Shown here: in pieces, positions 23,778-28,276 of the stretch
Layout of the letters: each line of letters opens with the position of its first letter
How positions within the stretch are numbered: the stretch's first letter is position 1
Assembly: GCA_009691335.1 (NCBI GenBank)
Contig: SICR01000004.1
Location: forward strand, 1-38,471
DNA length: 38,471 nucleotides
Reading direction: 5' to 3'
DNA from: Candidatus Zambryskiibacteriota bacterium
GTDB lineage: Bacteria; Patescibacteriota; Minisyncoccia; Phycocordibacterales; Zambryskibacteraceae
Program-made: the position numbers and the translations under genes
Notes under the pieces: generated by a model
The model's input: only the letters and a program-made list of their open reading frames with translations
What the model was told of the DNA's origin: nothing
The model's database searches: none

Positions 23778-24308
23778 TCAGGTTAATTGACTAGCCTGTA
23801 TACCTATATTTATGGCTTTGATTAAGGCTTTTCTACCAGCTTCGTCAACAGACGGGTCTAAATTTAAATCCGACTCATGCAAATATCCTAGCTGGTAGAG
23901 TATTTTTGCCACCAATCGCATCTCAAACATCTCTTGGTCAACATCCGATGTTGACCATCTAGACACAACAGCTCCTTCCACCACATCAAACAATTCTGGA
24001 TGAGGTTCCTCACCCTGAACCAATTTTTCTAAAAGTGACAGAGGTCTCGCCATCTCTCTCATAGAAGAAAAATTTTGTAGAAATTCTCCTGAAGTAATCC
24101 GCCAATATTCCTTGCCTCTTACGAGCGATATTCTGGATAGAGAAAGTGGCTCAAGTGCTCCGCGAAGTTTAGAGGCTTCCTTGCGCACACCAAGTGCCGT
24201 GGCGTGTATCAAGCCTAGCTCACGGGTAAGAATGCTGTATACTCTGTCCGCTTCTTTTATCGGCCTTTCGGACAAAATTATCCCCTTAGTGGTATAAATA
24301 TGGTAAGA
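23778..24308 (-). CDS. recO: DNA repair protein RecO, short form
   Basis: RecO helps load RecA on SSB-coated DNA. The GTG at 24308 gives the expected OB-fold start (MSYHIYTTKGIILSERPIKE). Longer frames would run back into ileS. The OB fold covers about 1-80 (EADRVYSILTRELGLIHATA, RKEASKLRGALEPLS), followed by helices. At 176 residues it is shorter than the usual 230-250, and the C-terminal zinc-finger cysteines are missing. It begins 22 bp after ileS. ssb and recA are also in the window. Confidence 0.88.
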   Translation of the reverse strand, partial: SYHIYTTKGIILSERPIKEADRVYSILTRELGLIHATALGVRKEASKLRGALEPLSLSRISLVRGKEYWRITSGEFLQNFSSMREMARPLSLLEKLVQGEEPHPELFDVVEGAVVSRWSTSDVDQEMFEMRLVAKILYQLGYLHESDLNLDPSVDEAGRKALIKAINIGIQASQLT

Positions 24309-24330
24309 CACGGGAATTAATTTACAATTC

Positions 24331-27300
24331 TCAATTGAACTCCACATTCGTAGCTTTTTGAATTTCTCCAGCATGTTTGGTAAAAAACTTTTTCCCTCCT
24401 TCTGGTATTTCATAAGCCGCCCTTTCTCCAGGTTTCAACCCTCTCTCTTTTCTCCACACCTGAATAGTACGGACTGCGTCGCGCACTCTCCCCTCTTCTT
24501 CCAATTCTGAAGTTATATTTATATCAAGCCAGACCTCTTCAGTAAGATTTTCATCGACTGTTACAGCCTTAACATTCAGTTCATCTTTTATTATTTCCAG
24601 ATATTCTTTTTCCAAATCTTTATCCTTAATTTTAAGTTGAGCTAAGGGCTGGCGAACCTTAATATTTGCTTTCATACGCGCTTCAAGAGCAAGAGAAGTG
24701 AGTCTTCTGGTTTCTTCCATCGCAGTCAATATATCCTTATCTGGCTTACCACCTTCAGGCCATGACTCGAGGTGAACACTCAATGAATCATTGGATTCTT
24801 TTACTTTCTGATACATATCTTCGGCAATAAATGGCATTATCGGTGCTATCAATTTCGAAAATTCTTTAAACACGTAGCGAGTAGTGGCTAGAACACTCTG
24901 CTTGTCTTCTGTATCACCGCCCTTAAATCTTTCTCGCGAGCGCCTAATATACCAAGTGGACAAATCCGCTACGAAGTCGCGGATTGGACGGCTGGCTCGC
25001 ACCAAGTCGTACTCCTCCATTGCTCCCGTTATCTCTATCGTCAATTGCCTAAAGCGAGAGATTATCCAACGGTCAAGCACGTGTTTACTCTCGGCAGAAG
25101 CAGTGACATCGGTAGCATAAAGTTCATAAAAGCCAAAGGCGTTCCACAAAATATTAATGAGCCGGTTATGAACTTCTTTCACCTCTTCATCCTTAAATAG
25201 CATATCCTCCGCCCGCATCACCACGTTACTCATGAGGTAATAGCGGAATGCATCAGCTCCGATACTATCAAGCAGAATCAGCGGATCTGTGTAATTACCT
25301 TTGGATTTGCTCATCTTGGAACCATTCTTGGCCTGAACATTCCCTGTAGATATGACATTCTTAAAGGCCACATCATCAAACAGCATCACCGCGATAGTAT
25401 GCATGTAGTAAAACCAGGTACGGGTCTGAGCTATGTACTCAGCCACGAAGTCCCCGGGAAAGCACGATTCAAACTCTTTCTTATTTTCAAAAGGATAATG
25501 ATACTCGGCAAACGGCATTGAGGCCGACTCGACCCAGCCGTCTATCACTTCTGGAATCCTCTTGAGAGGCTTACCGTCTTTCTCAAGATTTATTTCATCT
25601 ATATACGGGCGATGAAGATCAATTTCGTAATTGTCATTGTGAGGTAGAGGCGCAAAATCTAACTCACGGACTTCTGCATTCCCAAAACGTTTAAACTCAT
25701 CGACAAATACGTGAGTATCTGCTGGACGATAAACTTTATTATTTGGGTCAAACATGCCCGCGTTTACATAAAATAGCCACGCTGGTCCTCCGTGTGTGAC
25801 AAAGAGTATGTTTTTACCCTGATATTTATTTTCAATTTCATAGAGACATTCGCCCACTCTCTTTTGACAATCAAGAAGAGACTCGCTGTTACCGAGATGC
25901 CGAGTAAACCAATCACTACCTGAAACAAGCATGTCTGAATGATAATCCGGCCAAGCCTTGCCATCATAATCGCCTGGATTTATTTCCTGAATCCTTTCAT
26001 CGAAAACTACTGAGCCTTTTTTCAATCCAAGTTCGGTTCGTACTATTTCAGCAGTTTCTCTAGTTCGAGCAAATGGAGAAGCGACAATTAGATCAATTTT
26101 GTTTTGAGAAAGATTCCTCGCAATCTTCAAAACTTCTTTTTTACCTTCTTCAGTTAAGTGATCATTACCTTGATTCTTGTAACTGATAACATCTTTAGCG
26201 TTTCCCTCAGTTCCTCCATGTCGCATTACGAAATATTTATTTCCTGATTTTTTTGAATATTTTTTCAACTCATCCAAAGAGCCTATCAAAATAATTTTCC
26301 CTTCTTCATCCTTCCAGATTGGTAATGGCGCAGCCCAATAGCGATTGCGAGAAATAGTCCAGTCAGGAGCGTTCTCAACAATATTCAAGAATCGGCCATG
26401 CTTGAGGTGTCCCGGCACCCAATTAATCTTTTCATTCAACTTGATCATCTTCGCTTTTACCTTCTGGATATTTATAAACCATGAGGAAATAGCATTATAG
26501 AGGAGGGCGGTACCACAGCGATGACAGTGAGGATATGAGTGGGTATGTTGTTCGCGTTTAAAGAGAAGATTTCTCTTTTCCAAATCTTCCTTTATCGCCT
26601 TCTCCGCTTTCTTGAAATATTGGCCGCTTATGAGTTCTGGAGCTTTCTCATTGAAATGGCCAGCATGATCAAGAAGTTGGACCATCGGCAAATCAAGTTT
26701 AAGTCCCAGTGCATAATCGTCTTCTCCATATAACACCGCGGTATGAACAACCCCTGTTCCTTCATCAATGTTTACGAATTCTGCTTCTGCCACATACCAA
26801 CCTTTCTTTCCACCTTCTTTGGCCGCAGGAATTTCATAAATTGGCTCGTACTCTATACCAACCATTTCACTTCCCTTATGTTCTGCTACGATTTCGTACG
26901 GTTCAGACATGAGAAGAAGTCTGCTTTTAGCCAAAATTAGAATTTCACCCCCTATTTTTATCTCCACATAATCAATATCTTTACCCACTGCTAGTGCCAC
27001 ATTGCCCGGTAGTGTCCAAGGAGTAGTCGTCCATGCTAAAAAGTAGGTATTAGGAAAGTCTTTTAATTTAAATTTCACATAGACTGACTCTTCAGCAACA
27101 TCTCTATAGCTGTTATCCATCGCGATCTCAGCTTTCGCTATGGGAGTTTCGCAATGAGGGCAATACAGGAGCACCTTACGACCTTCGTACAACAAACCCT
27201 TCTCATTTATATTTTTCAACGCATGCCAGACGCTCTCAATATAAGTGTTATCCATGGTCTTATACGCATTGTCGTACTCCACCCAGCGTCCTATACGCTC

Positions 27301-27696
27301 TATATAACGCTTCCAGTCATGGGCATAGCGCAAGACTGACGCTCGACACGCTTCATTGAAGGCTTTGACTCCGATCTTATCTTCTATTTCTTTCTTATCC
27401 TTAATACCGAGCTCTTTCTCTATCATGTTCTCTATAGGCAGACCATGGCAATCCCAACCCCAGCGACGACGGACATGATAACCCCTCATAGTTTTGTATC
27501 GAGGCACAACATCTTTGATAATAGAAGAAAGCAAGCTCCCGGCGTGTGGCAAGCCTGTAGCAAATGGCGGGCCATCGTAGAATACGAAATCACCCTTGGG
27601 AGCTTTTTTCTCCAGACTTTTCTCAAAAATCTTATTATCCTTCCAGAATTGGATGACTTCCTCTTCCTTTAGGGCTCGTTCTGACTTTTCAACCAT
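24331..27696 (-). CDS. ileS: Isoleucyl-tRNA synthetase with embedded histidine-phosphatase domain
   Basis: A class I synthetase of 1121 residues. The HIGH-type motif reads GLPHAGS (about 48-54, second His replaced by Ser). The CP1 editing domain shows TTPWTLPGN (about 223-232) and zinc cysteines CPHC (179-182) and CHRC (391-394). The KMSKS motif is intact (794-798), and the anticodon domain follows. Between IGSLDELKKYS (about 471-481) and DLHRPYIDEI (about 693), normally a short linker, lies a full histidine-phosphatase domain of about 200 residues. It has RHGGTEGN with the nucleophile His at 492, ASPFARTRETAEIV, and the second His at 635 in VTHGGP. The phosphatase motifs look intact. The frame is continuous. 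recO follows after 22 bp. Confidence 0.97.
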   Translation of the reverse strand: MVEKSERALKEEEVIQFWKDNKIFEKSLEKKAPKGDFVFYDGPPFATGLPHAGSLLSSIIKDVVPRYKTMRGYHVRRRWGWDCHGLPIENMIEKELGIKDKKEIEDKIGVKAFNEACRASVLRYAHDWKRYIERIGRWVEYDNAYKTMDNTYIESVWHALKNINEKGLLYEGRKVLLYCPHCETPIAKAEIAMDNSYRDVAEESVYVKFKLKDFPNTYFLAWTTTPWTLPGNVALAVGKDIDYVEIKIGGEILILAKSRLLLMSEPYEIVAEHKGSEMVGIEYEPIYEIPAAKEGGKKGWYVAEAEFVNIDEGTGVVHTAVLYGEDDYALGLKLDLPMVQLLDHAGHFNEKAPELISGQYFKKAEKAIKEDLEKRNLLFKREQHTHSYPHCHRCGTALLYNAISSWFINIQKVKAKMIKLNEKINWVPGHLKHGRFLNIVENAPDWTISRNRYWAAPLPIWKDEEGKIILIGSLDELKKYSKKSGNKYFVMRHGGTEGNAKDVISYKNQGNDHLTEEGKKEVLKIARNLSQNKIDLIVASPFARTRETAEIVRTELGLKKGSVVFDERIQEINPGDYDGKAWPDYHSDMLVSGSDWFTRHLGNSESLLDCQKRVGECLYEIENKYQGKNILFVTHGGPAWLFYVNAGMFDPNNKVYRPADTHVFVDEFKRFGNAEVRELDFAPLPHNDNYEIDLHRPYIDEINLEKDGKPLKRIPEVIDGWVESASMPFAEYHYPFENKKEFESCFPGDFVAEYIAQTRTWFYYMHTIAVMLFDDVAFKNVISTGNVQAKNGSKMSKSKGNYTDPLILLDSIGADAFRYYLMSNVVMRAEDMLFKDEEVKEVHNRLINILWNAFGFYELYATDVTASAESKHVLDRWIISRFRQLTIEITGAMEEYDLVRASRPIRDFVADLSTWYIRRSRERFKGGDTEDKQSVLATTRYVFKEFSKLIAPIMPFIAEDMYQKVKESNDSLSVHLESWPEGGKPDKDILTAMEETRRLTSLALEARMKANIKVRQPLAQLKIKDKDLEKEYLEIIKDELNVKAVTVDENLTEEVWLDINITSELEEEGRVRDAVRTIQVWRKERGLKPGERAAYEIPEGGKKFFTKHAGEIQKATNVEFN

Positions 27697-27769: not shown

Positions 27770-28276
27770 TTAGACTCGCTCAGGCTCTGGAGTCTCCAAT
27801 GATTCAAGTGCCAAATTACGGGAGAATACACGACTGCCCATAAACCATCCGTCTGGATCAGAGATCTCTTCGGTAATGATGCGCCAGCCATCTCTAGCTC
27901 CACGACGTGCAAGCACGGCGCAACCATCAACATAGAAAATGTTTGTGCGCCCGTCAACGAGGAGATCACCCTTACGGCCATTTGCTTGCGACTCTACCTT
28001 ATCGAAGAGCCAAGCCAAGAAGATTTCGTGACCCTCACCAAGTTCGGCCTTGATGGGACCAAGGGTCGAGCTCTGCACCAATCGATGACTAGAGAGTGTA
28101 GCAGATGGGACATTCTCCTCGATCTTGTCACAAAACAACCTTTCAAAGTTACCACCGAGGTAATAAATCCCGGCGTTGCCCTTTTTGAAGTTTTTAGCAA
28201 CTATGAACCTCTCATGCGCTGAGACCTTGACGTCACTCTTGACGAGCTCAAGGATCGACTTCATTGCAAACTCCAT
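27770..28276 (-). CDS. Hypothetical protein, 168 residues, own regulated promoter
   Basis: I do not recognise the family. The ATG at 28276 is supported by GGGAG 6 bp upstream. The product is soluble, with a lysine-rich first third (VSAHERFIVAKNFKKGNAGI). Its middle alternates strands and helices, and one stretch near 120-140 looks like a strand pair (NIFYVDGCAVLARRGARDGW). No membrane segment or catalytic motif is clear. The gene is monocistronic, with a consensus promoter overlapped by a 9-3-9 palindrome and a strong terminator. It looks like a regulated accessory gene. Confidence 0.7.
   Translation of the reverse strand: MEFAMKSILELVKSDVKVSAHERFIVAKNFKKGNAGIYYLGGNFERLFCDKIEENVPSATLSSHRLVQSSTLGPIKAELGEGHEIFLAWLFDKVESQANGRKGDLLVDGRTNIFYVDGCAVLARRGARDGWRIITEEISDPDGWFMGSRVFSRNLALESLETPEPERV

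Follow-up and report, generated by a model that had tools for sequence, protein, structure and literature searches.

Aminoacyl-tRNA synthetases with appended domains are already known. The MetRS of Mycoplasma penetrans bears an appended N-terminal aminotransferase domain that supplies the amino acid (PMC7694997), the NCBIfam model NF040702 (ileS_w_GNAT) describes an IleRS with an inserted enzyme domain, and a survey of 379 IleRS described HXGH and G/AXHH as the only signatures (PMC10485003). Searches of PMC full texts for a published fusion of a histidine phosphatase (HP) with an aminoacyl-tRNA synthetase yielded nothing relevant. The ileS gene considered here, which lies in a stretch of 38,471 nucleotides (the window) from a Candidatus Zambryskiibacteriota bacterium, encodes an IleRS with such a domain embedded in it. 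What is new, beyond the fusion, is the occurrence in related genomes of an unfused HP gene upstream of ileS, of HP in ValRS and of multiple and other inserts, together with the separate histories of the HP and its flanks.

The features of the gene are collected in Table 1. The plus strand across 24331-27696 is full of stops and the reading frame is that of the minus strand, a point missed in the first-pass annotation, which otherwise had the coordinates right but did not note the unfused HP genes, the ValRS and multiple inserts or the exchange of the module. The whole protein exceeds the cut-off of the IleRS family model TIGR00392 (812 bits against 621), KMSKS is intact, an alignment of 48 relatives has the CP1 editing motifs among its invariant columns, and an AlphaFold2 model of the whole enzyme (pLDDT 90.0, pTM 0.84) has IleRS2 of P. 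megaterium (8c8v, E 1e-81) as its best fold match. The canonical signature, HxGH or G/AxHH, is replaced by HAGS; all other features hold and the genome (83% complete) yielded a single IleRS match and no second IleRS, so that the protein is a variant rather than a canonical IleRS, whose body is predicted to be a functional, single-copy and editing-competent synthetase. With regard to the neighbouring genes, a RecO reading frame at 23778-24413 shares 83 bp with the 3' end of ileS when the first ATG is taken as its start, translation probably beginning at an internal codon, and a 168-aa reading frame between ileS and argS (27770-28276) is without any Pfam match.

Table 1. Features of the ileS gene and its product, in window coordinates
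Feature	Coordinates	Strand	Evidence
ileS, isoleucyl-tRNA synthetase with embedded histidine phosphatase, 1121 aa	24331..27696	minus	TIGR00392 812 bits; full-length model pLDDT 90; fold match 8c8v
First body half, aa 1-480: first part of catalytic fold and CP1 editing domain	26257..27696	minus	88% identity to relative L027
Class I signature HAGS, aa 51-54, Ser at fourth-His position	27535..27546	minus	
CP1 editing domain, aa ~196-390, with WTTTPWTLPGN and GTGVVH..YGEDD	26527..27111	minus	1wk8 match 196-390; invariant columns
Embedded histidine phosphatase domain, aa ~487-690	25627..26238	minus	PF00300 103 bits; model pLDDT 90; Foldseek PspA, Rv2419c, PhoE
RHG, aa 492-494, catalytic His 493	26215..26223	minus	Invariant in alignments, Gly nearly so
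Arg 544, phosphate-binding	26065..26067	minus	Invariant in alignments
Glu 571, presumed general acid	25984..25986	minus	E or D in almost every insert
His 635, second catalytic His	25792..25794	minus	Invariant in alignments
Second body half, aa 691-1121: DLHRPYID, remaining catalytic domain, KMSKS, anticodon-binding domain	24334..25626	minus	80% identity to L027
KMSKS, aa 794-798	25303..25317	minus	

The gap between the I/FGSxxEL and DLHRPxID motifs is ~10 residues in insert-free relatives and ~200 in the window IleRS, where the HP (aa ~487-690) takes the place of ~10 residues between IGSLDEL and DLHRPYID. The location originally proposed, between editing and catalytic parts, can be refined to the second part of the split catalytic domain, downstream of the CP1 editing domain and the WTISRNRYW segment. 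The claim that a complete phosphoglycerate-mutase-like domain is present is borne out by the motifs RHG, SPFARTRETAE and VTHGG and by a match to Pfam PF00300 (His_Phos_1) at aa 489-651 (103 bits, cut-off 21.7), which is the sole PF00300 match of this genome (478 kb, 83% complete). It is also borne out by structure prediction, a check that the first-pass annotation had proposed: AlphaFold2 gives a confident HP fold for the domain alone (pLDDT 90.1, pTM 0.89), to which PspA (phosphoserine phosphatase; E 3e-13), Rv2419c and PhoE are nearest by Foldseek. The residues that define a branch 1 HP (PF00300), namely RHG, the second Arg, the second His and an acidic residue, are all there, as is the fold in the model.

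The active site is strictly conserved. Six columns, R15, H16, S63, R67, R135 and H157 in domain numbering, are invariant across 97 non-redundant IleRS inserts and in the free HPs of these genomes too, and R15, H16, R67 and H157 are the phosphate-site residues of the superfamily. Loss of the histidines in homologues had been named as the sign of a structural leftover; it was found in none of the 97, and among 19 other inserts R15, H16, S63, R67 and H157 showed one exception (H157 to S). Of 167 inserts, 158 have E at the acid position and seven have D. This conservation is not a product of the search, because the named loci were found via the IleRS peptide DLH[RK]PYID and not via the active site. 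The domain is thus probably an active HP, as had been suggested, and from the conserved residues and the superfamily we infer that His493 would be phosphorylated by a phosphomonoester bound through Arg492, Arg544 and His635, that Glu571 would serve as the acid, and that water would then release the phosphate. In about a dozen genomes the HP is shortened by ~35 residues, the substrate lid, between the acid Glu and R135, with the active site kept; counted by alignment columns, one such short row is left after redundancy filtering. Variable length and loss of the lid in some lineages could be taken to mean that the domain is a structural filler or a remnant whose activity no longer matters, but this is highly improbable given that R15, H16, S63, R67 and H157 admit no exception in the IleRS inserts.

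The assignment of a specific function from curated models is not straightforward, since the HP falls below every curated equivalog cut-off, with scores of 80 of 163 bits for alpha-ribazole phosphatase, 53 of 350 for PspA and 35 of 74.5 for SixA. The HP superfamily includes the cofactor-dependent phosphoglycerate mutase dPGM, and a cofactor-independent mutase-type metalloenzyme (PF01676) was detected in none of the 31 genomes of the family, which might suggest that the insert supplies the mutase of glycolysis. The likelihood of this is negligible, however, as enolase went undetected in 28 of the 31, this genome included, and the dPGM model NF038349 gives 63 bits against a cut-off of 225; the candidate was rejected. 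Removal of pyrophosphate had also been proposed, but the genome has a normal inorganic pyrophosphatase, and the idea of a stand-in for a missing enzyme was rejected for this genome; Ppa is present in 23 of the 31 family genomes. With Ppa present and enolase mostly missing, neither a shortage of the one nor glycolysis explains the insert. For the two other roles raised in the first-pass annotation, action on nucleotide by-products and coupling of charging to a metabolite signal, no evidence was found.

The altered HIGH motif, to which attention had also been drawn, is real. HxGS (HAGS, HYGS or HSGS) occurs in eleven IleRS of the set (the window, L010, L014, L018, L025, L027, L075, L085, L086, L139 and L207), every one with an insert, and eight of the rows from the family, among them two pairs of identical sequences, group together as one body clade. 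As judged from sequence, HxGS is a third natural IleRS signature beside HxGH and G/AxHH. A link between HAGS and the insert was nevertheless ruled out, inserts being found with all three signature types; HAGS belongs to the IleRS body and is a separate finding.

The first-pass annotation had left it to a search of other CPR IleRS to decide whether the fusion was restricted to a single assembly, and its spread through family, class and phylum sample rules out an isolated assembly oddity. Within the Zambryskibacteraceae the HP domain was found in 30 of 31 genomes and in all seven genera, the best matches lying in reading frames of ~730-1330 aa. In the class, at least 145 of 286 genomes have the fused HP-IleRS, a figure counted from the best 150 places, all but four of which are in reading frames of at least 724 aa, nearly all of these spanning the IleRS junction. 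An HP match in a reading frame of at least 850 aa was present in at least 64 of the 380 genomes of the phylum sample. The named loci, among the matches listed, belong to Parcubacteria groups (e.g. Zambryski-, Nomura-, Taylor-, Kaiser-, Yanofsky- and Colwellbacteria) or to MAGs labelled simply 'bacterium' or 'uncultured bacterium'. A contig of a 'Spirochaetia' MAG (L091), possibly misbinned, carries a Patescibacteria-like HP-IleRS.

A comparison of the HP with its flanks reveals that they have separate histories. The two halves of the window IleRS are 88% and 80% identical to those of L027, whereas the HPs, that of L027 being of the short form, share only 47%; along the protein, identity is ~90% before residue ~480, drops beyond it to a minimum of 17% and is regained at ~690, which places the breakpoints of the mosaic. 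The HP closest to that of the window IleRS, with 67% identity, is the one in L003, the body of which is of another IleRS type (AIHH) with 54% and 49% identity in the two halves. A chimeric assembly is an unlikely source of this pattern, because the same kind of mosaic is seen in other pairs of genomes, L004 and L024 having bodies that are 85% and 87% identical and HPs that are 50% identical, and L024 and L025 forming a further such pair. Across 23 genomes the flanking halves agree with one another (Spearman 0.85), compared with 0.17-0.18 for either half against the HP, and the HP tracks rpoB more closely (0.60) than does the body (0.41). The approximately unbiased (AU) test rejects the HP topology on the body data and the body topology on the HP data. 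The cassette thus moves among three IleRS body types, HxGH, G/AxHH and HxGS. At the start of the editing domain (aa ~201-260, 27096-26917) the window IleRS is equally similar to the L003 type and to its own body clade, and a second exchange there is possible.

The insert is not the only form in which these phosphatases are associated with the synthetases. In four lineages, L192/L060, L194/L054, L130 (Nealsonbacteria) and L137 (Portnoybacteria), an insert-free ileS has a related HP gene directly upstream, touching the ileS reading frame or ending within ~40 bp of it, and in L193 an HP gene lies ~860 bp upstream. The four operonic HPs fall within the IleRS-HP clade of the tree and may therefore be ancestors or split-off products of the IleRS-HPs, and not necessarily independent partners. 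In other families, HP occurs in ValRS at a site equivalent to that in IleRS; IleRS and ValRS are the only host enzymes so far. Two HPs per enzyme were seen in L143, L150, L153, L211, L212 and L214 and three in L142; the sites used include one in the second half of the catalytic domain and another that separates this domain from the anticodon-binding domain. GNAT (L149), HAD (L151) and serine hydrolase (L151, L152) inserts also occur, and altogether L142, L143, L149-L153 and L211-L214 have multiple HPs or such other inserts, at several sites. The AU test rejects the hypothesis that all IleRS inserts arose once (p 0.0015, or 0.0055 if the operonic HPs are included), and the trees indicate that HP has been captured into IleRS more than once; for the ValRS inserts the corresponding hypothesis is not rejected (p 0.07).

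These associations bear on what the phosphatase might do. It is unlikely, though not implausible, that the HP serves the chemistry of IleRS and ValRS by removing AMP or another phosphorylated by-product of activation or editing, so as to pull the reaction or prevent product inhibition. Both hosts are editing enzymes with HP at an equivalent site, and the HP gene adjoins ileS where it is unfused, but the loss of AMP would presumably be costly for such small genomes, many relatives manage without the HP domain, and a cassette that moves among three body types gives no sign of fine coupling. It is distinctly unlikely that a nearby macromolecule is dephosphorylated, whether the target is the IleRS, another protein of the translation machinery or a tRNA end that bears phosphate. 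SixA is a small, lid-poor phosphohistidine phosphatase, and the shortened domains resemble it in losing the lid and keeping the active site; the operonic HPs (L130, L137, L192, L194) are moreover strongly basic, with a median pI of 9.65. The embedded domains, however, are slightly acidic with no sign of RNA binding, the SixA model is not reached, and domains with a full lid predominate. Very unlikely, too, is a role in the detoxification of aminoacyl-nucleotide-like inhibitors that target IleRS and ValRS: the other inserts found (GNAT, HAD and serine hydrolase) resemble detoxifying enzymes, but the argument is purely analogical and mupirocin is without phosphate. The IleRS bodies of the family do include G/AxHH types, and that motif leads to mupirocin hyper-resistance (PMC10485003).

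We judge, with slightly better than even confidence, that the insert is a working branch 1 HP and an autonomous phosphomonoesterase, and that IleRS carries it as a cassette open to exchange, housed at a permissive site that separates the two parts of the catalytic fold. The autonomous reading follows from the movement of the module between HxGH, G/AxHH and HxGS bodies and its presence in ValRS. The substrate would be a small phosphomonoester, the removal of which is useful wherever the cassette is tethered, and not a step of one kind of IleRS; the lid-shortened forms of several lineages fit less well with a small substrate, and, as the only hosts so far are IleRS and ValRS, a link to the charging of isoleucine and valine may be more specific than 'cargo' implies. 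It is conceivable, if doubtful, that the IleRS and ValRS of Patescibacteria are docking frames for reassorting cassettes, HP above all but also HAD, GNAT and serine hydrolase, providing an aaRS-tethered clean-up or quality control of the aminoacylation site and hence a hitherto undescribed level of translation control.

Across a large group of very small bacteria, most of them uncultured, a housekeeping translation enzyme seems to carry a second chemical job. An essential synthetase of a very large bacterial group has a phosphatase with a conserved active site inside its catalytic region, for which no earlier report was found, and the cassette, taken up on more than one occasion, has been duplicated, is found in ValRS too and has been swapped between IleRS lineages. 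This is a natural case of domain-scale recombination within an indispensable enzyme and offers a concrete test of the extra chemistry needed by IleRS and ValRS in minimal cells.

In relation to known systems, the window IleRS has the same body fold and domains as the type 2 IleRS of P. megaterium (8c8v) and the IleRS of T. thermophilus (1ile), with ~30-33% identity in structural alignment, and has KMSKS and the CP1 editing domain in common with them, but differs in the 204-residue phosphatase insert and in HAGS for HxGH or G/AxHH. The HP shares fold and active-site residues with PhoE, PspA and CobC-type phosphatases (1h2e, 4ij5, 6nru) at 20-26% identity; it differs from them in being embedded in a synthetase and in scoring under the cut-off of each curated equivalog. 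The enzymes described by ileS_w_GNAT are likewise IleRS with an inserted enzyme domain, and a GNAT insert is also found in L149, but the window protein, in which the insert is a phosphatase and a GNAT domain is absent, scores 284 bits against a cut-off of 1999. The MetRS of M. penetrans is likewise a fusion of a metabolic enzyme domain to the synthetase of a reduced genome, whereas the phosphatase described here sits inside the catalytic region and is both widespread and exchangeable.
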